From Hyphomicrobiales bacterium (GTDB lineage: Bacteria > Pseudomonadota > Alphaproteobacteria > Rhizobiales > Kaistiaceae), in the NCBI GenBank assembly GCA_017305815.1, contig JAFKJZ010000507.1, forward strand, positions 1 to 10,031: 10,031 nucleotides of DNA, read 5' to 3'. The notes beneath the pieces were generated by a model. That model saw nothing but the letters and a program-made list of their open reading frames with translations. It ran no database searches and was not told the DNA's origin. Numbering within the stretch: position 1 is the first letter of the stretch; each line of letters starts with the position of its first letter. This document shows, one piece after another, positions 693-10,031 of the stretch. The translations under genes and the position numbers were made by a program.

Positions 693-1541
693 TCAGAGCT
701 CGACGGGGCGCGCCGGATCGAGGATCCACTCGCTCCACGAGCCGATGTAGTGCTTGGCGTCGCCGAGCCCGGCATGGGCCAGCGCCACCAGGTTCTGCGC
801 CGCCGTGACACCGGAGCCGCAATAGAAGATCGTCTGCGAGGAGGGCACGTCGCCGAGCAGGCCGAGATAATGGGCGCGCAGTTCCTCGGGCGTACGGAAA
901 TGGCCGTTGGCGTCGAGCGTGTCGGCGCGGTTGGCGAGCCGGGCGCCGGGAATGTGGCCGCGGACGGGGTCGTGATAGACGCCGCCGCCATGGAAGCCTT
1001 CCTTGGAGCGGGAATCGAACACGGCCCAGGCGGGATCGAGGCGCACGCGGTCGACGTCTTCCAGAGAGGCGAAGAGTTGCGGCCGTTCGTTGAGCGGGAA
1101 TTCGGTCGGCTGGCGCTGCACGGCATCCGACGAGACGGGGCGACCTTCCTTGGTCCACGAGGTCCAGCCGCCATCGAGCACGGCGACCGCGTCATGGCCG
1201 GCCCAGCGCAGCATCCACCAGACGCGCGAGGCCGCCATCAGCCCGCCGCTGGCGTCATAGACGACGACCTGCGTGTCGGCGCCGACGCCCCAGTCGGACA
1301 GCGTCTTCGCGAAGGTGGCGATGTCGGGCAGTGGGCGGCGGCCGGTCTTGCCGGGGATGATCGGTCCGGAGAGGTCCGTGGCGAGGTCGGCGTAGATCGC
1401 GCCGGGGATGTGGGCGCGCTCATATTCGTTGCGGCCCCACTGCTCGTCGTCGAGCGTGAATCGGGCGTCGATGACGAGCCAGTTCGGGTCGTCGAGGTGC
1501 TCCGCCAACGTCTGGGCGGGAAGGATGGTGGTAAAGGCCAT
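693..1541 (-). CDS. sseA: 3-mercaptopyruvate sulfurtransferase (tandem rhodanese)
   Basis: A 282-aa two-domain rhodanese. Domain 1 (about residues 6-137) is the non-catalytic half: the position equivalent to the active cysteine is Asp96 in VVYDASGG. Domain 2 (about 155-278) carries the active loop CGSGVTA with Cys241. In this family CGSGVTA is typical of 3-mercaptopyruvate sulfurtransferases such as E. coli SseA, whereas thiosulfate sulfurtransferases usually have CRKGVTA. The C-terminal GSWSEWILDPARPVE is also typical. It would move sulfur from 3-mercaptopyruvate to a thiol or cyanide acceptor in the cytoplasm. The ATG at 1541 has an AGAGGA site about 6 bases upstream. It lies 29 bases after the aldo/keto reductase stop, on the same strand, so co-transcription with the sugar genes is likely although no direct metabolic link is obvious. 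The length is normal and no motif is missing. Confidence 0.92.
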   Translation of the reverse strand: MAFTTILPAQTLAEHLDDPNWLVIDARFTLDDEQWGRNEYERAHIPGAIYADLATDLSGPIIPGKTGRRPLPDIATFAKTLSDWGVGADTQVVVYDASGGLMAASRVWWMLRWAGHDAVAVLDGGWTSWTKEGRPVSSDAVQRQPTEFPLNERPQLFASLEDVDRVRLDPAWAVFDSRSKEGFHGGGVYHDPVRGHIPGARLANRADTLDANGHFRTPEELRAHYLGLLGDVPSSQTIFYCGSGVTAAQNLVALAHAGLGDAKHYIGSWSEWILDPARPVEL

Positions 1542-1570: not shown

Positions 1571-2617
1571 CTAGGCAATCTCGGGCAGGGCGGCTGCCGG
1601 GATCGGGATGTCGTCGCCGAGCAGGGCTTCGGCGCGGAGTTCGAGCCAGAAATCAGCCGGGATCGGATGGCGGAAATGCCGGAGGTTCTGCTCGATCTCG
1701 CCGACGCGCGACGGGCCGTTCAGCACGCTCGCGACCGCGTCGAAGCCGAGCGGGAACTGCAGCGCGGCGGCGGCCAGCGGCACGCCATGGCGCGCCGCCA
1801 CCGCTTCCAGCCGGCGCACGCGCTCGAGGACGGCCGCCGGCACGGCGCCATATTCGTAGCGGCCGGCGCCCGAGGTGCCCGTCGCCAGGATGCCGGAATT
1901 GAACGCGCCGCCGATGACGATGCCGGCGCCCTCGCGCTCGGCACGCAGCAACTCGTCGGCGAAGATCGTCTGTTCCAGCAGTGTGTAGCGCGAGGCGACG
2001 AGGAAGGCGTCCAGCGGGTAACGGTCGAGGAAGCGGTCGATCATGCCGCGTTCGTTGATGCCGGCGCCGATGGCGCCGATCTCGCCGGCTGATTTCAGCT
2101 CTTCCAGCGCTCGGAATCCGCCGGTCTCCAGTTCGCGCAGCCGCGCCAGAAGGTCGGCCTCGTCGGGGAAATAGCCGCTGTCGAGATCGTGGATGTAGAG
2201 GATCTCGACCTTGTTGATCCCGAGCCGCTGCAGGCTGTCTTCATAGGAGCGCAGGATGCCGTCATAGGAGTAATCGTGCACATGCTCGAAGGCGAGGCCG
2301 CCCTTCCATTTCGAGCCGTCGAAACGGGCGCGGTCGCGCGGGCGGAACAGCCGGCGCCCGACCTTGGTCGAGAGCACGAATGCCTCGCGCGGCCGGCGGT
2401 AGAGCGCGCGGCCGGTGCGGTGCTCGCCCTGGCCGAGACCGTACCAGGGCGCGGTGTCATAGAGCCGGACGCCGCCATCCCAGGCGGCCTCCAGCGTGGC
2501 GCTGGCTTCCGCCTCCGGGATCGCCTCGAAGAGATCGCCGAGCGGGCACGTGCCGACGCCGAAGACGGGAAGCTGGAGATCGGTCCTGCCGAGCCGGCGG
2601 GTCGGGAACAGGGTCAT
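1571..2617 (-). CDS. Aldo/keto reductase, D-threo-aldose (L-fucose) 1-dehydrogenase type
   Basis: A 348-aa TIM-barrel aldo/keto reductase. The catalytic tetrad is readable: Asp54 and Tyr59 in YDTAPWYGLG, Lys85 in STKVG, and His143 in YIHDLD. The DTAPWYGLG block, the long insert around residues 88-120 and the overall length fit the subgroup that oxidises aldoses at C1 with NAD(P)+ (D-threo-aldose 1-dehydrogenase, L-fucose or galactose dehydrogenase; pyridoxal 4-dehydrogenase is a relative). The product would be an aldonolactone, which suits the lactonase encoded two genes upstream. The ATG at 2617 shares ATGA with the stop of the preceding dehydrogenase, and a GGGAG site sits 8 bases before it, so translational coupling is likely. 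Substrate choice (L-fucose, D-arabinose, apiose or another sugar) cannot be settled here. A reductive detoxifying role is possible but fits the context less well. Confidence 0.88.
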   Translation of the reverse strand: MTLFPTRRLGRTDLQLPVFGVGTCPLGDLFEAIPEAEASATLEAAWDGGVRLYDTAPWYGLGQGEHRTGRALYRRPREAFVLSTKVGRRLFRPRDRARFDGSKWKGGLAFEHVHDYSYDGILRSYEDSLQRLGINKVEILYIHDLDSGYFPDEADLLARLRELETGGFRALEELKSAGEIGAIGAGINERGMIDRFLDRYPLDAFLVASRYTLLEQTIFADELLRAEREGAGIVIGGAFNSGILATGTSGAGRYEYGAVPAAVLERVRRLEAVAARHGVPLAAAALQFPLGFDAVASVLNGPSRVGEIEQNLRHFRHPIPADFWLELRAEALLGDDIPIPAAALPEIA

Positions 2618-3660
2618 GCGGGGTCTCCCACAAGTCGGTCGGGATGGATGAGCCTGCCGCTGGCGGCGGAGAGATACGCCGCTTCGAGCAGGGCATAGGT
2701 GGCGAGGCTGTCGCGGCCGGACGTTGCCGGCTCGGTGCCCTGGCGCAGGCTGTCGATGAAGTGGCGCTGGGTGTGGACGACGCTGTCCTGGATCTGCGTC
2801 CAGGGCGCGCTGGTCCAGGCGCGGCCGTCCTGCGGCACAGGGATCGGTCGCGTGCCGCCCTTGCCATGCACGGTCAGCACCTGGTCTGCGCCGATCACCA
2901 GCGTGCCATCGGTCCCCTCGATCTCGCCCAGCGTCTGCGGGAACGGATCGGGATCGCGCCTGGTGGCGTAGCTGAAGTCGAGGATCGACGTCGCGCCCTG
3001 CGCATGGCTGAGCAGGATGGTCGCGGCATCCTCGCCCGCGATGCCTTCCCTGATCTGCTGCGTGCGGCAGAAGACGCCATTCGCCTCGCCGAACAGGAAG
3101 CGGGCGAGGTCGAGCAGGTGGATGCCGACATCCATGATCATGAAGCGTTCGACGTGCACCAGATAGGGCTGGTTCGAATAGACGTCGATGCCGGTGCGCC
3201 AGGAGAGGCGGCCGAAGGTCAGCCGGCCCAGCTCGCCACTGTCGAGGATCTGCCGCACCGTCCGGAACAGATTCTGGAAGCGGAAATCCTCGTGGATCAT
3301 CAACGGCACGTTGGCCGCTTCGGCGGCGGCGACGATCCGCCGGCAGCCGTCGAGATCGGGCGCGAACGGCTTCTGCAGGATCACCGGCACGCCATGGGCG
3401 AAGGCGAGCGCCGTCAGCGCCTCATGCGTCTCCATCGTCGTCGGGATGTCGACGAAGTCGAGCGCCTCGGTGGCGAACAGGGTTTCGGCGCTGGTGTAGA
3501 CGCGGGCGATGCCGAACCTCTCCGCTGCAAGCCTGGCCTTGGCTTCATCGAGATCGCAGACGGCGACGATCTCGACGTCGTCGAGGTCGGCCCAGCCATA
3601 GAGGTGGTTCTGGGCAAAGAAACCGCAGCCGATGACCGCGCCCTTCAAGCGTGCGGTCAT
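2614..3660 (-). CDS. Gfo/Idh/MocA dehydrogenase, possible D-apiose dehydrogenase (ApsD-like)
   Basis: A 348-aa NAD(P)-dependent sugar dehydrogenase of the Gfo/Idh/MocA family. The Rossmann motif GCGFFA is at residues 11-16, followed by VCDLDEAKA with an acidic end to beta-2, which suggests NAD(H) preference. The family EKP motif reads QKP (96-98). The substrate-side helix contains DVGIHLLDL (177-185) with His181. The start at 3660 is preferred over longer openings because the fold begins directly with TARLKGAVIGCG, a GGGAG site lies 7 bases upstream, and the ATG overlaps the stop of the 657-aa gene as ATGA. D-apiose dehydrogenase (ApsD), which makes D-apionolactone, belongs to this family, and the ApnL-like gene next door makes that role attractive. 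The specific assignment is inference; myo-inositol or other sugar dehydrogenases are alternatives. Confidence 0.85.
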   Translation of the reverse strand: MTARLKGAVIGCGFFAQNHLYGWADLDDVEIVAVCDLDEAKARLAAERFGIARVYTSAETLFATEALDFVDIPTTMETHEALTALAFAHGVPVILQKPFAPDLDGCRRIVAAAEAANVPLMIHEDFRFQNLFRTVRQILDSGELGRLTFGRLSWRTGIDVYSNQPYLVHVERFMIMDVGIHLLDLARFLFGEANGVFCRTQQIREGIAGEDAATILLSHAQGATSILDFSYATRRDPDPFPQTLGEIEGTDGTLVIGADQVLTVHGKGGTRPIPVPQDGRAWTSAPWTQIQDSVVHTQRHFIDSLRQGTEPATSGRDSLATYALLEAAYLSAASGRLIHPDRLVGDPA

Positions 3661-5630
3661 GCGGCCGCTCCCGTTTCGGAGAGGGTCGCGACCGCATAGG
3701 CGTCGAGCGTCAAAGTCCCCTCGGCGGGCAGGCTGACGGTCGCTTCGCGGAACGCGGACGGGTCGAGGGCTGCGGCCTCGAAGCTTTCGGCGTCGAGCCG
3801 CCGCAGCGTCGCGGCGCCGAGACCGGTGAGACGGAGTGTCACGGGCCGGTTGGAGAGATTGGCAAGGATGACATGCCGCCGTCCGTCTTGGGTCCAGCCG
3901 AGCGCCGCGATGTCGGGGTTCGGCGCGTCGATCGAGAGCCGGGGCTTGCCGGAAGCGCCAGCGAGATCGGCGGCGACATGGAACAGCGGATAGGCGCTGC
4001 CTTGGGCGACGTCGTCCCACCACGGCCGGGCATAGGCCTGTGGCGTCGAGACGAGCCCGAACGGGCCGACCGGCGCGCCGAGGACGAGCGCATCGATGCC
4101 GAAGGGCGCGATCGCAGCGGCATAGCCGACATGCCAGGCGGCGCCGAGCAGCGCGCGCTGGCGCGGATCGGCCGCGGCGAGGCCGACGCGGCCATTGTCG
4201 GGATTGGGTGTCGGTCCCGGCCCATAGGGGTTGAGCCGCGCGCCGATGCCGATCGGGCCGATGTGATGCGGTGCGCTGCCGGCGATCGCCCGTGCCGAGC
4301 GCAGGATATGCGGCAGCGATTGCAGCGTTTCGATCACAGAGAGATCGTCGGCGGCATGCACGGTCGGCGCGGTGGCGTGGGTGATGAAATCGAAGGTGCC
4401 GGCGGGCGGCCGCTTGCGGTTCAGCTCGGTGAAGAAGGCCGGCGAGCCGCTGCCGGCCGGAATGCCGGGGAAGCTTTCGCGGAGGGCATCATGGATGGCC
4501 GCCTCGCTCGGAGCCGGCGGACGCGCCTCGCCCGGCTGGAACGACGCCTCGTCGACCTTGGGGAAGGCGGCGACCGAAAGCGGCGCGATTCCGGCATCGG
4601 CGAGCAGCCGCGCCGCCTCGGCGATTTCCGGGCGGGGATCGGCCGGGGCGGCGAGCAGAAGCTCGAAGGCGATGGCGAGGCCGGTGCGGCGCGAGAGTTC
4701 CGCCGCCGCGCCGATGTCTTCCGGCGTGTCGCCGGCCGAGGGATCGTAGCGGAGCAGAAGATGCGCGCCGACAAGCGTTGAAAGCTGCGGCGCCACCGCC
4801 AGCGCCGCATCGGCGAGCGCGGCCGGCAGGCCGATGCCGATGCGGGGCAGGCGGACATCCGTCGCCTTGCCGATCGTGACGGTCGTGGGGTCGCTCGCGC
4901 CCGAGGCGGCAGCCGCCGGCTGTTTCCGCTCGAGGTCGTCCCGGACCGTGACGGTCACCGATTGCCGCGTCGGCGTGCCGGCTTCGAGCCGGTAGGGATA
5001 GGGCAGGCCGATCGGCCTGCTATAGGTCTTGAACGAGGCGTCGGACCAGTTGCGGTGGTCCTCCATCTCGAACACGTCGCCCTCGAAGCGGACCGCGACC
5101 GAGAGGCCGGGCTCGGGCGAGTGGGTGATGGCGCGGATGTCGAACAGCGGCTGGCCGGGGCTTATCGCCTCCGGCATGACGAAGGCTTCGGTGCCGCCCG
5201 AAGCATGTTCGACCGACAGTTCCCGGCCGACGACGCCGTCGAGGGGATGCAGCACAACGAAGCCGGTGCGGTTGGTCTCGAAATCCGTCTCCGGCAGGAT
5301 CGTCGCGGTGGCGTCGAGCGTGCCGACTGCGGTGCCGGTGAAGCGGATCCGGGCCGAGACGATCGCCGCGCCATTGCGGTAGCGCGCCGTGTAGCCGACC
5401 GAGAACTGGGCCGTGTCCTCGGCGATTTCCAGTTCGCTGATCTCGGCGTCCGGCGTTCCCCAGCCCGGCGTGCGGACGAGGAAGGAGAGGCCGCGCAGGA
5501 TCTCCCGGCCGTGCCAGCGGACCCAGCGCAGCGCGCCGCGATCATAGCTGGCCGTGAGCGCGCCGGCGGCGAGATTGCGGACCGGCGGCTCGAGGCTCGC
5601 CGTGCCGGTGAGGAAGAGGGGACGGCTCAT
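3657..5630 (-). CDS. apnL: Three-domain protein resembling D-apionate lactonase (ApnL)
   Basis: A 657-aa protein with no signal peptide, so probably cytoplasmic. Three parts can be seen: an N-terminal beta-rich domain (about 1-235) ending in the conserved-looking block MEDHRNWSDASFKTYSRP (189-206); a middle TIM-barrel-like domain (about 255-560) with FFTELNRKRPP (399-409), THATAPTVHAADD (417-429) and NPDNGRVG (476-483); and a short C-terminal beta domain (about 575-650) like those of glycoside hydrolases. From memory, this N/M/C architecture and these blocks match D-apionate lactonase, which hydrolyses D-apionolactone to D-apionate. Glu402 is a visible acidic candidate in the barrel; its role is unproven. 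The preferred start is ATG 5630, which overlaps the permease stop as ATGA. The open frame runs further upstream, but that part only shadows the permease. Only a weak AAGAAG precedes the ATG. An unusual glycosidase is the main alternative. Confidence 0.72.
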   Translation of the reverse strand: MSRPLFLTGTASLEPPVRNLAAGALTASYDRGALRWVRWHGREILRGLSFLVRTPGWGTPDAEISELEIAEDTAQFSVGYTARYRNGAAIVSARIRFTGTAVGTLDATATILPETDFETNRTGFVVLHPLDGVVGRELSVEHASGGTEAFVMPEAISPGQPLFDIRAITHSPEPGLSVAVRFEGDVFEMEDHRNWSDASFKTYSRPIGLPYPYRLEAGTPTRQSVTVTVRDDLERKQPAAAASGASDPTTVTIGKATDVRLPRIGIGLPAALADAALAVAPQLSTLVGAHLLLRYDPSAGDTPEDIGAAAELSRRTGLAIAFELLLAAPADPRPEIAEAARLLADAGIAPLSVAAFPKVDEASFQPGEARPPAPSEAAIHDALRESFPGIPAGSGSPAFFTELNRKRPPAGTFDFITHATAPTVHAADDLSVIETLQSLPHILRSARAIAGSAPHHIGPIGIGARLNPYGPGPTPNPDNGRVGLAAADPRQRALLGAAWHVGYAAAIAPFGIDALVLGAPVGPFGLVSTPQAYARPWWDDVAQGSAYPLFHVAADLAGASGKPRLSIDAPNPDIAALGWTQDGRRHVILANLSNRPVTLRLTGLGAATLRRLDAESFEAAALDPSAFREATVSLPAEGTLTLDAYAVATLSETGAAA

Positions 5631-6661
5631 CGCTTGCACTTCTTGATGAAGATGTCGAAGGTGACCGCGCCGACGATGATCGCGCCGATCAGCAATTGCT
5701 GGACATAGGGCGACACGTTGAGGATCACGAGACCGTTGAGCAGCACGCCGATCAGCAGTGTGCCGATCACCGTTCCGGCGATGCTGCCGGTGCCGCCATA
5801 GAGGCTGGTGCCGCCGATCACGACGGCGGCGATGACATTGAGCTCGTACTGGTTGCCGGCGACCGCCTCCGCCGAATTGAGCCGCGAGGCGAGCAGGAAG
5901 CCGCCGAGCCCGGCGCAGAGCCCGGTCAGCGCATAGACGCTGACCAGCGTGCGGTTGACGTTGAGGCCGCAGAGCCGCGCCGCCTCCGGGTTGGAGCCGA
6001 TGGCGTAGACCGAGCGGCCATAGCGGGTCGAATGCAGCACGAAGCCGGCGATCACGACGACGACGAGGAAGACGATGACCGGCACCGGTACGGCGCCGAC
6101 CATGCCGCGTCCCCACCAGCCGAAGCTTTCGTCGAAGCCGCTGATCGGGCCGCCATTGCCGATGATCAGCGCTAGGCCGCGGAAGATGGTCATGCCGCCC
6201 AGCGTCACGACGAAGGCGGGCACGCTGAGCCTCGCGACGAAGACGCCCTGCAGCGCGCCGGCGACGCCGCCGACGACGATCGCGGCGAGCGCCGCCCAAT
6301 ACCAGGCGAAGGGCGCGCCGCCGGCGGTCAGCTCCAGCCGGCCGGGAATGCCGCCCTTGGCGACGACGGCGGCGACGAGGCCGGTCAGCGCGATCAGCGC
6401 GCCGATCGAGAGGTCGATGCCGCGCGTCAGGATGACGAAGGTCATGCCGACGGCGACGATGCCGAAGATCGAGACCTGGCGCAGGATGTTGAACAGGTTC
6501 AGCGACGACAGGAAGCGCGGCGCCAGGAAGGTGAAAAGCGCCATCAGCAGCAGCAGGAAGATCAGCGGCGCGAAGCGGGCGAGAAGCGCGAGCGCATTCG
6601 TCGACCGCGGGCGGGCGAGGGAGGGCGAGGGGGCCACGGAGGGCGACGGAACAAGGGACAT
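5627..6661 (-). CDS. Sugar ABC transporter permease, RbsC-like (CUT2)
   Basis: A 344-aa inner-membrane permease of the ribose/xylose branch. Hydrophobic segments run from about residue 24 to the end. Family blocks are present: GIVAVGMTFVILTRGIDLSIGA near the first third, GGMTIFRG, YAIGSNPEAARLCGLNV (the cytoplasmic loop contacting the ATPase), and NVIAAVVIGGTSLYGGTGS near the C-terminus. Length and order are normal. The N-terminus before the first helix is a short Pro/Ser-rich stretch with a PSPS repeat. It starts 19 bases after the ATPase stop, and I see no clear Shine-Dalgarno sequence in that gap, so translation may rely on coupling. The stop overlaps the next start (ATGA at 5630). A homodimer would form the pore for the sugar delivered by the binding protein encoded at 8150-9124. 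Confidence 0.95.
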   Translation of the reverse strand: MSLVPSPSVAPSPSLARPRSTNALALLARFAPLIFLLLLMALFTFLAPRFLSSLNLFNILRQVSIFGIVAVGMTFVILTRGIDLSIGALIALTGLVAAVVAKGGIPGRLELTAGGAPFAWYWAALAAIVVGGVAGALQGVFVARLSVPAFVVTLGGMTIFRGLALIIGNGGPISGFDESFGWWGRGMVGAVPVPVIVFLVVVVIAGFVLHSTRYGRSVYAIGSNPEAARLCGLNVNRTLVSVYALTGLCAGLGGFLLASRLNSAEAVAGNQYELNVIAAVVIGGTSLYGGTGSIAGTVIGTLLIGVLLNGLVILNVSPYVQQLLIGAIIVGAVTFDIFIKKCKR

Positions 6662-6680
6662 GGTTTCAACCGGGTTGGGA

Positions 6681-8153
6681 TCAGGCTGCCGCCTTGGGGA
6701 GCGTCATCAGCCGCATCAGGCTTTCCTCGTCGGCATCGCGGCCGGCGAGTTCGCCGGTCAGGCGGCCGGCCCGCAGCGTCAGGATGCGGTCGCTGAGCGC
6801 CAGCACTTCCGGCAGGTCGGAGGAGATCAGCAGGATGGCGACGCCATCGGCGGCGAGTTCACGCAGCAGGCGATGCAGGTCCCCGGAAAGCGTGGCGATC
6901 GGCGCGTCGGCGCCGGCCGAGCGCAGCTTCAGCCGATCGCGAAAATGCTGGAACGCGCCTTTCTCGGCCTTGCGGCGCAGGATGCCGAACGGGCCGGCGG
7001 GCACGCCGCCTGCGGCTGCGAAATTCTCGCTGATGGCAAGCGTCGGGAACAGCGACTGCTGCTTGCGGTCCTCGGGCACGAGGGCGACGCCGGCGGCGAT
7101 CGCGTCTCCCGGACCCTTGGGTCGATAGGCCTCGCCGTTCAGGCGGATCGAGCCGCCGCCGATCGGATCGGCGCCGAAGATCAGGCGGGCGATCTCGGTG
7201 CGGCCGGCGCCGACCAGCCCGGCCAGACCGACGATCTCGCCGGCGCGGACGGAGAAGCTGACGCCCTCGACGGAAGCCGAACGGGCGGAGCGCGGCCGGC
7301 TTTTCAGCCCCTCGACCTCAAGCACCACGGCGCCGGGCTTCGAGGCGGCGTGATGGCGGTCTTCCTCGAGCAGTTCGCGGCCGACCATCCAGCGGACGAG
7401 ATCGTCGATCGTCGCGTCGGCGATGTCACCGCTCGCGACGACGACGCCGTCGCGCAGCACGGTGAAGCTGTCGGCGAGTTCCTTTACCTCTTCCAGCCGG
7501 TGGCTGACGAAGAGGATGGCGACGCCTTCGGCGGTGAGCGCGCGGACGACCGCCTTCAGGCGATCCACTTCGCGCGGCGTCAACGATGCCGTCGGTTCGT
7601 CCATGATGATCAGGCGGGACTTCAGCGTGAGCGCGCGGCCGATCTCGACCAGCTGCTGCTCGGCGATGCTCAGATCCGCGACGCGCCGTCCGGGCGCGAT
7701 CTCGGCGCCGAGCTGCTGCATCACCTCTATGGTCTGACGGGCGATGCGGCGCCAGTCGACCAGGCCGAAGCGATTGACGGGCAGGCGACCGGCAAAGATC
7801 GTCTCGGCCACGGTCAGGTCGGGAAACAGGCTGAATTCCTGGTGGATCGTCGAGATGCCGCGCTTCTGCGCGTCGTTCGGCCCGGTCAGCTCGACCGTCT
7901 CGCCGTCGAGCCGGAGCGATCCGCCATCCGGCTTGCGGATGCCGCTCAGGAGGTTGATCAGCGTCGACTTGCCGGCGCCGTTCTCGCCGAGCAGCGCATG
8001 AACCTTGCCGGCGGTGAGCGCCAGCGAGACGCGGTCGAGCACCGTCACGCCGAAGAAGTGCTTGGAGAGGGTTTCGAGGCTCAGAAACGAAGCCTCGGGT
8101 GGCGTGACGCCACCCGAGGAAACCGTCCCGGCATCGCTGCCGATCGCGGTCAT
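6681..8153 (-). CDS. Sugar ABC transporter ATPase, RbsA/XylG-like, with internal deletion in NBD2
   Basis: A 490-aa tandem ATPase of CUT2 sugar importers. NBD1 is intact: Walker A GENGAGKST (56-64), Q-loop Gln105, signature LSIAEQQ (161-167), Walker B LIIMDE (181-186) and His218. NBD2 has the family's degenerate Walker A GLVGAGRTE (312-320) and VPEDRK (359-364), then TLSG (421-424) runs straight into DLHRLLRELAADG. In E. coli RbsA the corresponding stretch is LSGGNQQK, Walker B ILDEPTRG and VDVGAK, so about 34 residues (about 102 bases) are missing in frame at 6881/6882. In this family the working ATP site pairs NBD1 Walker A/B with the NBD2 signature, so function is doubtful. The stop of the binding-protein gene overlaps this start (ATGA at 8153), with no Shine-Dalgarno visible. 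About 20 residues precede the domain proper. The frame is otherwise clean, so I list it as a CDS rather than a pseudogene. Confidence 0.9.
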   Translation of the reverse strand: MTAIGSDAGTVSSGGVTPPEASFLSLETLSKHFFGVTVLDRVSLALTAGKVHALLGENGAGKSTLINLLSGIRKPDGGSLRLDGETVELTGPNDAQKRGISTIHQEFSLFPDLTVAETIFAGRLPVNRFGLVDWRRIARQTIEVMQQLGAEIAPGRRVADLSIAEQQLVEIGRALTLKSRLIIMDEPTASLTPREVDRLKAVVRALTAEGVAILFVSHRLEEVKELADSFTVLRDGVVVASGDIADATIDDLVRWMVGRELLEEDRHHAASKPGAVVLEVEGLKSRPRSARSASVEGVSFSVRAGEIVGLAGLVGAGRTEIARLIFGADPIGGGSIRLNGEAYRPKGPGDAIAAGVALVPEDRKQQSLFPTLAISENFAAAGGVPAGPFGILRRKAEKGAFQHFRDRLKLRSAGADAPIATLSGDLHRLLRELAADGVAILLISSDLPEVLALSDRILTLRAGRLTGELAGRDADEESLMRLMTLPKAAA

Positions 8154-9124
8154 TGCGTGATCGTGCCGATGCGTTCGGCGTCGGCGAGGTTGGCCTTGGT
8201 GATGGCGACCGGCTCGACGAGGATGTTGGAATTGGCGGGCTTCACGCCTTCGCGGATGAAGTCGACCAGCGTCTTGACCGCGACGCGGCCCTGCTTGCCC
8301 GGGAACTGGTCGACGGTGGCGGCGAGCGAGCCGTCGCTGACGGCCTTCAGCGCGTCGGTCGAGCCGTCATAGCCATAGATGGCGATCTTGCCGTTGAGCT
8401 TGCGAGCTTCGACCGCCTGGGCGGCGCCGAGCGCGCTGTCGTCATTGGCGGCGACGATGACCTGCGGCAGCTCGGCCTGGCCGGTCAGGATGTTCTCGGT
8501 GACCGAGAGGCCCTGGTCGCGGCTGAAGCGGGCGGTCTGCTCCGAAACGAACTTGTATAGGTCGGGCTGCTTGTCGAGGACGTTGTGGACGCCCTGGTTG
8601 CGGTCATTGGCGGTCTTGTCGCCGGGGATGCCCTGCAGGTTGATGATCGTCGCGCCCTTCGGGAACTGCGCGGCGATCGCCTCGCCCTGGCGCTCGGCGC
8701 CCTTGAGGTTGTCGGCGGCGACATTGGCGAGCACTTCCGGCACGCCATTGACGGGGCGGTCGATGGTCACGACCGGCACGCCGGCGTCGATCGCCGCCTT
8801 GACGGCGGGGGCGAGCGCGTCGGCATCGGCCGGGGCGATGATGATGCCGTCGACGCCCTGAACGATGGCGGCCTCGATGTCGGCGATCTGCTTCGGCGCG
8901 CTCAGCTGGCCGTCGGCGCGCAGCACCTTGACCTTGCCGATCTTGGCTGCTTCATCCTCGAGCTGTTCCTGCAGGAACACGAAGTGCGGGAAGGAGTAGG
9001 TCAGCGAGGAGACGAGGATCGTGACCTCGGCGTCCTTGCCCTTCGGTTCCGCAAAGGCGTGCGAAACGGGCGCGGCCGCCAGCGCCGCGAGAGCGATCGC
9101 GGAAAATGTCGTCTTGATCGACAT
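8150..9124 (-). CDS. Periplasmic sugar-binding protein, RbsB-like (type I fold)
   Basis: A 324-aa solute-binding protein of the ribose-type family. Residues 1-25 form a Sec signal peptide (Lys4, hydrophobic core, AFA before Glu26), giving a periplasmic protein. Ligand positions known from RbsB can be traced: aromatic FPHF (45-48), Asp122-Arg123 in TIDRP, Arg175, Asn227 in AANDDSALGA, Asp253 in GYDG and Gln273 in VDQF. The set suits a pentose or similar small sugar. The ATG at 9124 has AAGGAA 9 bases upstream, the best ribosome site of the transporter genes, as expected for the first gene of the operon. It is followed by the ATPase gene with an ATGA overlap. The ligand is inferred from the enzymes downstream: D-apiose if the lactonase call is right, otherwise an aldose such as L-fucose or D-arabinose. 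Confidence 0.94.
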   Translation of the reverse strand: MSIKTTFSAIALAALAAAPVSHAFAEPKGKDAEVTILVSSLTYSFPHFVFLQEQLEDEAAKIGKVKVLRADGQLSAPKQIADIEAAIVQGVDGIIIAPADADALAPAVKAAIDAGVPVVTIDRPVNGVPEVLANVAADNLKGAERQGEAIAAQFPKGATIINLQGIPGDKTANDRNQGVHNVLDKQPDLYKFVSEQTARFSRDQGLSVTENILTGQAELPQVIVAANDDSALGAAQAVEARKLNGKIAIYGYDGSTDALKAVSDGSLAATVDQFPGKQGRVAVKTLVDFIREGVKPANSNILVEPVAITKANLADAERIGTITQ

Positions 9125-9184
9125 GAGTTTGAATTCCTTGATGTTTTCGGCGCCGTCCTGGCGGCTCCGTCTGATACTCCTTAA

Positions 9185-9214
9185 TGTATATTGAATTTGT
9201 CGTCTTTTTCAGAA
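9185..9214 (-). promoter_or_regulatory. Candidate promoter of the sugar operon
   Basis: On the minus strand a TATACA (9190-9185) lies 18 bases after TTCTGA (9214-9209), a moderate -10 with a poor -35 match. It sits within the only AT-rich stretch of the window (9181-9262). A start near 9178 would give a leader of about 54 bases before the ATG at 9124. The weak -35 would fit a promoter that needs an activator. This is a pattern match only. Confidence 0.35.
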
Positions 9215-9218
9215 GGCA

Positions 9219-9258
9219 GGAATTTCCGTTGGAATTGGAAGGTTGGAAACGAAATTCC
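9219..9258. promoter_or_regulatory. Imperfect inverted repeat, candidate regulator-binding site
   Basis: GGAATTTCCGTT (9219-9230) is mirrored by AACGAAATTCC (9248-9258), with one base missing from the right arm. The 17-base spacer holds further TTGGAA copies, so TTGGAA occurs at 9229-9234, 9235-9240 and 9243-9248. It lies just upstream of the candidate -35, where an activator would bind. Which family of regulator uses it is unknown; none is encoded in the window. Confidence 0.4.
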
Positions 9259-9281
9259 AAAAAGGGATCGATCCCGGGATC
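9259..9281 (-). terminator. Overlapping palindromes followed by a T-run, weak terminator or operator
   Basis: Two perfect 12-bp palindromes overlap: GGGATCGATCCC (9264-9275) and GATCCCGGGATC (9270-9281). Read on the minus strand they are followed by five T (9263-9259). That resembles an intrinsic terminator, but the practical stem is only about 4 bp with a 4-base loop, so an operator is as likely. Confidence 0.25.
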
Positions 9282-9312
9282 GGCAGAAACGGGTGATGGA
9301 CGGGTCGCGCGG

Positions 9313-9332
9313 GAGTTGCAGAGGGGCAACTC
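9313..9332. repeat. Small stem-loop, 7-bp perfect arms
   Basis: GAGTTGC (9313-9319) and GCAACTC (9326-9332) enclose a 6-base loop. No T-run follows on either strand. It lies in the untranslated stretch between the dipeptidase and the sugar operon; it may be an RNA structure or chance. Confidence 0.35.
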
Positions 9333-9435
9333 GGCAAGGGCGCGAGGGCACGCGGGGCCGGCGTCAGGCAAGGCCGGGGGCTGGCGACACATCCGGTGAC
9401 GCCGGTCGCGCGCGGCGGAGACGGCGAGGCGGGGA

Positions 9436-9453
9436 GGGCGCCACGTGGCGCCC
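9436..9453 (-). terminator. Perfect 18-bp palindrome after the dipeptidase gene
   Basis: GGGCGCCACGTGGCGCCC is fully self-complementary (7-bp GC stem with ACGT loop as RNA). It begins 35 bases after the dipeptidase stop on the minus strand. The position suits a transcript-end hairpin, but no U-run follows, so it would act as an mRNA-stabilising or Rho-assisted structure rather than a classical intrinsic terminator. Confidence 0.45.
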
Positions 9454-9488
9454 CCGGGGACTTCACGATGTGGTGCGCCGGAAGGGTG

Positions 9489-10031
9489 TCAGCGCGGCGA
9501 CCAGGTGCGGTCGAGCACGTCGAGCCAGTTTTCCGAGGCGATCCGGCGGATCAGCGCGTCGCCATAGCCATGCGCCTGCATCGCCTCGATCAGCCGGGGC
9601 AGCAGCGAGACGTCGGCGACGCCCTCCGGCACCACGGCGCCGTCATAGTCCGAGCCGAGCGCCACGCCGGTCTCGCCGAGCCGCTCCAGCATGGCGTCGA
9701 GATGGCGGATCATCACGTCGAGGCCGGTCGCCGCGTCCATGTGGCCGTCCGGGCGCAGGAAGGCGGTGGCGTAGTTGAGCCCGACCACGCCGCCGCTGGC
9801 GCGGATTGCCTCATACTGCGCATCGGTCAGGTTGCGCGAGACGGGGCAGATTGCATGGACGTTGGAATGGGTCGCGACCAGCGGCGCGTTGCTGGTTTTG
9901 GCGACCTCCCAGAAGCCCTTCTCGTTCAGGTGCGAGAGGTCGATCAGGATGCCGAGCCGGTTGCAGGCGCGGACCAGGTCGAAGCCGGCGTGCGTCAGGC
10001 CGGGGCCGGTATCGGGCGAACTCGGGAAGCG
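9489..10031 (-). CDS. M19 (membrane/renal-type) dipeptidase, C-terminal part
   Basis: The frame is open from the right edge to the TGA at 9489; 180 residues are visible and the start is outside. Counting from the edge, His34 in LIDLSHLN and His55 in VATHSN are 21 residues apart, and Arg66 in SRN is 11 further on. These spacings match the zinc ligands His198 and His219 and the substrate Arg230 of human renal dipeptidase. LGSDYDGA (125-132) carries the later conserved aspartates, and RIASENWLDVLDRTW is the typical end. The N-terminal HxD metal site is beyond the window. It would be a zinc enzyme cleaving dipeptides. About 360 non-coding bases with a hairpin separate it from the sugar operon, so it is probably a different transcription unit. 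An open frame starting at the internal Met at 9788 is only the tail of this gene. Confidence 0.93.
   Translation of the reverse strand, partial: RFPSSPDTGPGLTHAGFDLVRACNRLGILIDLSHLNEKGFWEVAKTSNAPLVATHSNVHAICPVSRNLTDAQYEAIRASGGVVGLNYATAFLRPDGHMDAATGLDVMIRHLDAMLERLGETGVALGSDYDGAVVPEGVADVSLLPRLIEAMQAHGYGDALIRRIASENWLDVLDRTWSPR

Follow-up and report, generated by a model that had tools for sequence, protein, structure and literature searches.

The 102-bp gap in the ATPase gene of a sugar importer from a Kaistia draft genome is very probably an assembly artefact of that draft, a systematic short-gap error laid over what would be a normal importer. A fault of assembly is a better explanation than a biological loss because similarly clean gaps are found in unrelated genes of the same draft. 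The DNA analysed here (the window) is a stretch of 10,031 nucleotides and makes up the entire contig C520 of the draft, G000, which consists of 719 contigs and 4.21 Mb, at 92.07% completeness and 5.28% contamination. The source organism, a member of Kaistia judging by its relatives, would most likely carry an intact operon for ABC sugar import, its RbsA/AraG-type ATPase being ordinary and of full length. During assembly or gap joining, stretches of approximately 40-100 bp would have been dropped at many sites and their flanks joined, and the NBD2 signature and Walker B would have fallen within one such stretch, in frame by chance. If so, the cause would be technical, and the reads would contain the missing bases.

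The importer locus

In the 490-aa open reading frame of the ATPase (features are listed in the table), the residues around the joint are ...IATLSG|DLHRLLRELAADGVAILL..., LSG running straight into the residues that follow it in NBD2. Alignment of the DNA to three orthologous loci, L016 (genome G009), L017 (G012) and L018 (G001), places the absence of exactly 102 bp at a single point, with flanks of 80-91% nucleotide identity to the three. The size of about 34 residues, or about 102 bases, given in the preliminary description is thus exact, and a single clean joint is confirmed, but its position, formerly put at 6881/6882, was one base off. As read from G009, the 34 absent residues comprise the NBD2 signature from GNQQK onward (after LSG), Walker B, and the D-loop, and the window ATPase as assembled accordingly has none of the NBD2 signature LSGGNQQK, Walker B and D-loop. 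NBD1, on the other hand, looks complete in translation (GENGAGKST, LSIAEQQ, IIMDEPT), with both Walker A and Walker B present and a full-length ABC_tran match at residues 39-189. The Walker A of NBD2 is degenerate (GLVGAGRTE), as had been noted before. The window protein and its G009 orthologue each have two ABC_tran stretches, indicative of two fused ABC domains, with an ABC_tran score of 183.1 bits in the orthologue versus 142 in the window form.

Features of the window, and frameshifting gaps at other sites of the same draft
Feature	Position	Strand	Basis or remark
Aldo/keto reductase, full length	1571..2617	-	Pfam match and orthologue comparison
Gfo/Idh/MocA oxidoreductase, full length	2614..3666	-	Pfam match and orthologue comparison
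ORF resembling D-apionate lactonase	3657..5627	-	NCBIfam NF049900, 557.8 bits, below the cut-off of 750
RbsC-type permease (BPD_transp_2), full length	5627..6661	-	Pfam match and orthologue comparison
RbsA/AraG-type sugar ABC transporter ATPase	6681..8153	-	490 aa as assembled; orthologues 524-525 aa
Joint without 102 bp (34 codons) that three orthologues have	6882..6883	-	DNA alignment
RbsB-type substrate-binding protein (Peripla_BP_4), full length	8150..9124	-	Pfam match and orthologue comparison
73-bp gap, frameshift, adenosine deaminase	contig C546 (L151), near 7614
95-bp gap, frameshift, BPD_transp_2 permease	contig C546 (L151), near 11577
46-bp gap, frameshift, FGGY kinase	contig C457 (L175), near 8052
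61-bp gap, frameshift, short-chain dehydrogenase	contig C20 (L192), near 2686
100-bp gap, frameshift, second RbsA-type ATPase	contig C127 (L183), near 5236

No microhomology was found at the window joint, and no second breakpoint of equal score in the alignment to G009, nor is there a stop codon in the frame of the ATPase. The dN/dS value is 0.108 for the window ATPase versus G009, 0.122 for the G009 versus the G012 gene, and 0.071-0.169 for the five neighbours of the window ATPase versus G009. There is no sign in these values of relaxed constraint on the window ATPase, and, with no stop in its frame and no excess of 1-2 bp indels in the draft, the gene does not have the marks of a decaying pseudogene.

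The search for orthologues covered 61 genomes, this draft and 60 relatives, 13 of the latter belonging to the same genus. Clear orthologues were found in three of the 13 same-genus genomes searched, all full length, with identities over the first 425 residues of 92% (G009), 87% (G012), and 82% (G001), the next best match being at 55%. The segment around the NBD2 signature was found in 122 of 124 RbsA-like loci, 44 of them from the genomes of our own set and 80 from contigs of named genomes, with one frame considered per locus and with some genes present twice (L017 and L055, for example, are both from Kaistia terrae). Besides the window gene, the only exception is one that runs off the end of its contig, and thus the short form, which the preliminary description had proposed to seek in relatives, is not seen outside the window gene among these loci. 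A strict-pattern motif count, which flagged 12 of the 124 loci, was dropped, as alignment of the segment revealed that the flagged loci, besides the window's own, represent variant motifs or contig ends. Elsewhere in the draft we found no intact copy of the segment, the only matches, besides the window's own flanks, being paralogues of 67-81% identity. A search of solved structures with the G009 orthologue returned other ABC ATPases among the matches listed (60 of 563).

The rest of the operon is intact, as previously stated: the permease, the binding protein, the Gfo/Idh/MocA oxidoreductase, the aldo/keto reductase and the lactonase-like ORF all match orthologues of equal or near-equal length, and the permease and the periplasmic sugar-binding protein adjoin the ATPase on its two sides. 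In its intact form the locus is, judging by the relatives, an ordinary ABC monosaccharide importer, composed of a binding protein, a double-NBD ATPase, and a permease. The lactonase-like ORF covers model NF049900 nearly end to end, with a score under the cut-off, and has no Pfam match. Its position beside the importer hints at a pathway for an apiose-type sugar in Kaistia, and it is on the resemblance of this ORF to D-apionate lactonase that we base our guess that the importer may function in the uptake and breakdown of an apiose-like sugar.

Two further observations concern the edges of the window. A gene for a rhodanese-type sulfurtransferase (693-1541, minus strand) occupies a part of the window (approximately 620-1590) where G009, G012, and G001 have only about 80-110 bp between the flanking matches; it thus looks like either a gain of the gene in the present genome or a loss in those three. 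At the right-hand edge, the stretch 9267-10031, with an ORF at 9489-10031 (minus strand) that is presumably dipeptidase-like, does not align to the operon neighbourhoods fetched from G009, G012, and G001.

Gaps elsewhere in the draft

For the draft-wide counts, we set 38 contigs of the draft (the window included; four truncated to 20 kb) against 41 stretches of G009; the contigs had been picked for their ABC ATPase matches, and the sample is therefore non-random. An alignment of 1 kb or more to G009 was obtained for 28 of these contigs, 234 kb in total, and the remaining ten were without a 1-kb counterpart among the G009 stretches fetched. Matches (HSPs) below 78% identity (80% in the alignment that located the window joint) or shorter than 150 bp, locus pairs with less than 1 kb aligned, gaps shorter than 30 bp, and those whose short side has over 15 unmatched bases were dropped before counting, and the final counts also leave out gaps longer than 250 bp (the draft has one such gap, of 469 bp). 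A gap was considered sharp if at least 90 of the 120 bases around the joint matched.

Over the 234 kb, the draft has 18 one-sided gaps of 30-250 bp and G009 has one; 10 and one of these, respectively, are sharp. A similar imbalance is seen against Kaistia terrae (G012; 21 stretches, 120.8 kb aligned), with 10 gaps versus none, and seven versus none sharp. All 10 of the latter gaps recur in the comparison with G009, their lengths equal to within 1 bp, and therefore they are sited on the side of the draft, while for four of the 10 gaps that are sharp versus G009 no counterpart was reported in the G012 stretches fetched. As a control, the better-assembled pair of G012 and G009, compared over 296 kb, has eight and three gaps, respectively, two and none of them sharp. 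The unfiltered rates are 8.1 per 100 kb for the draft versus 0.4 for G009, and 2.7 and 1.0 for the control pair of G012 and G009. The natural rate of such gaps is thus above zero, as the control pair is also gapped, itself unevenly (eight and three), although control gaps pass the test of sharpness less easily because this pair is more diverged. Likewise, the eight of the 18 draft gaps that are not sharp versus G009 may represent ordinary divergence. The shortest indels show no excess in the draft, with 180 versus 175 indels of 1 bp and 59 versus 78 of 2 bp (draft versus G009).

The ten sharp gaps measure 78, 73, 95, 46, 66, 81, 38, 100, 61, and 102 bp, and four of these lengths (78, 66, 81, and 102) are multiples of three. 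Eight are clearly within Pfam-matched genes, three of them in frame (the window ATPase, a two-domain aldolase/dehydrogenase, and a [2Fe-2S]/FAD protein) and five frameshifted, the latter given in the table. One example is the second RbsA-type ATPase, whose sequences on the two sides of the gap are 95% and 98% identical to G009 and contain no stop codon. The two sharp gaps that are not clearly coding are the 38-bp gap, on contig C127, and the 81-bp gap, upstream of an MGS domain on contig C585. Another gap, on contig C487, of uncertain frame, in a gene that we take from its sequence to encode an RND-type pump, measures 61 bp versus G009, where it is not sharp, and 60 bp versus G012, where it is. 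In these frame checks the G009 genes were taken as stop-to-stop frames, a few of which include leader sequence ahead of the start, and single stops occur in two or three of the comparisons. Overall, clean gaps do occur elsewhere in the draft, independently of the reading frame.

As to the technical cause of the gaps, GC content, hairpins, and exact repeats give no clear signal across the 18: the missing pieces are not extreme in GC (mean 0.671 versus 0.669 in the flanks), and the strength of their hairpins is near background (mean z of -0.60, with -1.68 for the window piece and -3.60 for one gap). Most of them possess exact repeats no longer than those of random pieces, but the window piece and one more have longer ones, of 29 and 38 bp, respectively. 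For the ten sharp gaps, microhomology allows for zero to three further equivalent breakpoints each, the window having zero.

Weighing the explanations

The preliminary description had offered three options, namely a recent deletion that inactivates the gene, an ATPase that works together with another NBD, and an assembly or sequence artefact; the draft-wide gaps favour the last over the other two. As to the deletion, a real and very recent event would have removed 102 bp with the NBD2 signature, Walker B, and D-loop, and, with these motifs lost, the ATPase would no longer work, the importer would be inactive, and the operon would be at the start of its decay. The cleanness of the gap within otherwise ordinary flanks agrees with such an event, and, as all three orthologues found are intact, the gap would indeed be derived; the rest of the gene, free of signs of decay, would fit a very recent date, and the fact that the window gap is in frame counts against an artefact. 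However, this deletion would be only one of many, given the 18 one-sided gaps against a single one in the reverse direction, and those that shift the frame interrupt unrelated genes whose halves remain highly similar to the genes of the relative. Natural decay is expected to bring many small frameshifts along with relaxed constraint, while indels of 1-2 bp are not in excess here, and the joint is formed without a direct repeat or microhomology. We thus consider a recent inactivating deletion improbable, though it is the more serious of the biological alternatives.

It is far less probable still that the short form works as it stands, by pairing with the NBD of another transporter or by forming a single ATP site in some other way. 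The in-frame gap, the complete look of NBD1, and the many RbsA-type paralogues in the genome as possible lenders of an NBD can all be cited for such a variant, and so can the low dN/dS, but the latter fits a gene that is truly full length equally well. The segment is kept in all but two of the RbsA-like loci, one exception being the window gene itself and the other a gene cut by a contig end, and the pattern of gaps across the draft calls for no special function. The most specific form of this proposal, that a natural ATPase dispensed, without a shift of frame, with the signature, Walker B, and D-loop of NBD2 yet continues to energize transport by using the NBD of a paralogous transporter, we regard as highly implausible.

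What remains favoured, then, is the assembly artefact, because the clean gaps recur in unrelated genes without regard to the reading frame. For the same reason, the earlier statement that the ATPase "has lost" these motifs is unsupported as biology, and the gap itself is probably without biological significance. More generally, before a clean in-frame loss of a catalytic motif in a fragmented draft is taken for evolution, other genes of that draft should be examined for gaps of the same kind, and equal caution is due with any other finding in this genome that depends on the absence of approximately 40-150 bp.

Comparison with known systems

The window ATPase resembles the double-NBD monosaccharide importer ATPases of the AraG/RbsA/XylG family, which we take to be of the CUT2 class. 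It scores best with the NCBIfam models for AraG, RbsA, AlsA, and a xylose ATPase, although among the 25 model scores listed all are below cut-offs, for the intact G009 orthologue as well, and it shares with the family the pair of ABC_tran stretches, the degenerate Walker A of NBD2, and an RbsC-type permease and an RbsB-type binding protein alongside. It differs from the family in that the form assembled in the window is without 34 residues of NBD2, and as a result the profile matches break at residue 424. A named example of the full-length form is the orthologue from Kaistia terrae DSM 21341 (G012; L055, the same gene as L017), which is 87% identical in amino acids over the first 425 residues and lies in DNA that is collinear with the window across positions 1604-9262, but which is 525 aa long.

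A parallel of another kind is presented by sequencing and assembly errors that break genes and can mimic pseudogenes, as described in the abstracts of two papers (PMC11017572, PMC12007338). What is shared with those cases is that conserved genes are broken technically within otherwise intact sequence; the difference is that the cases described there are frameshifts and premature or internal stops, while those described here are clean gaps of approximately 40-100 bp.
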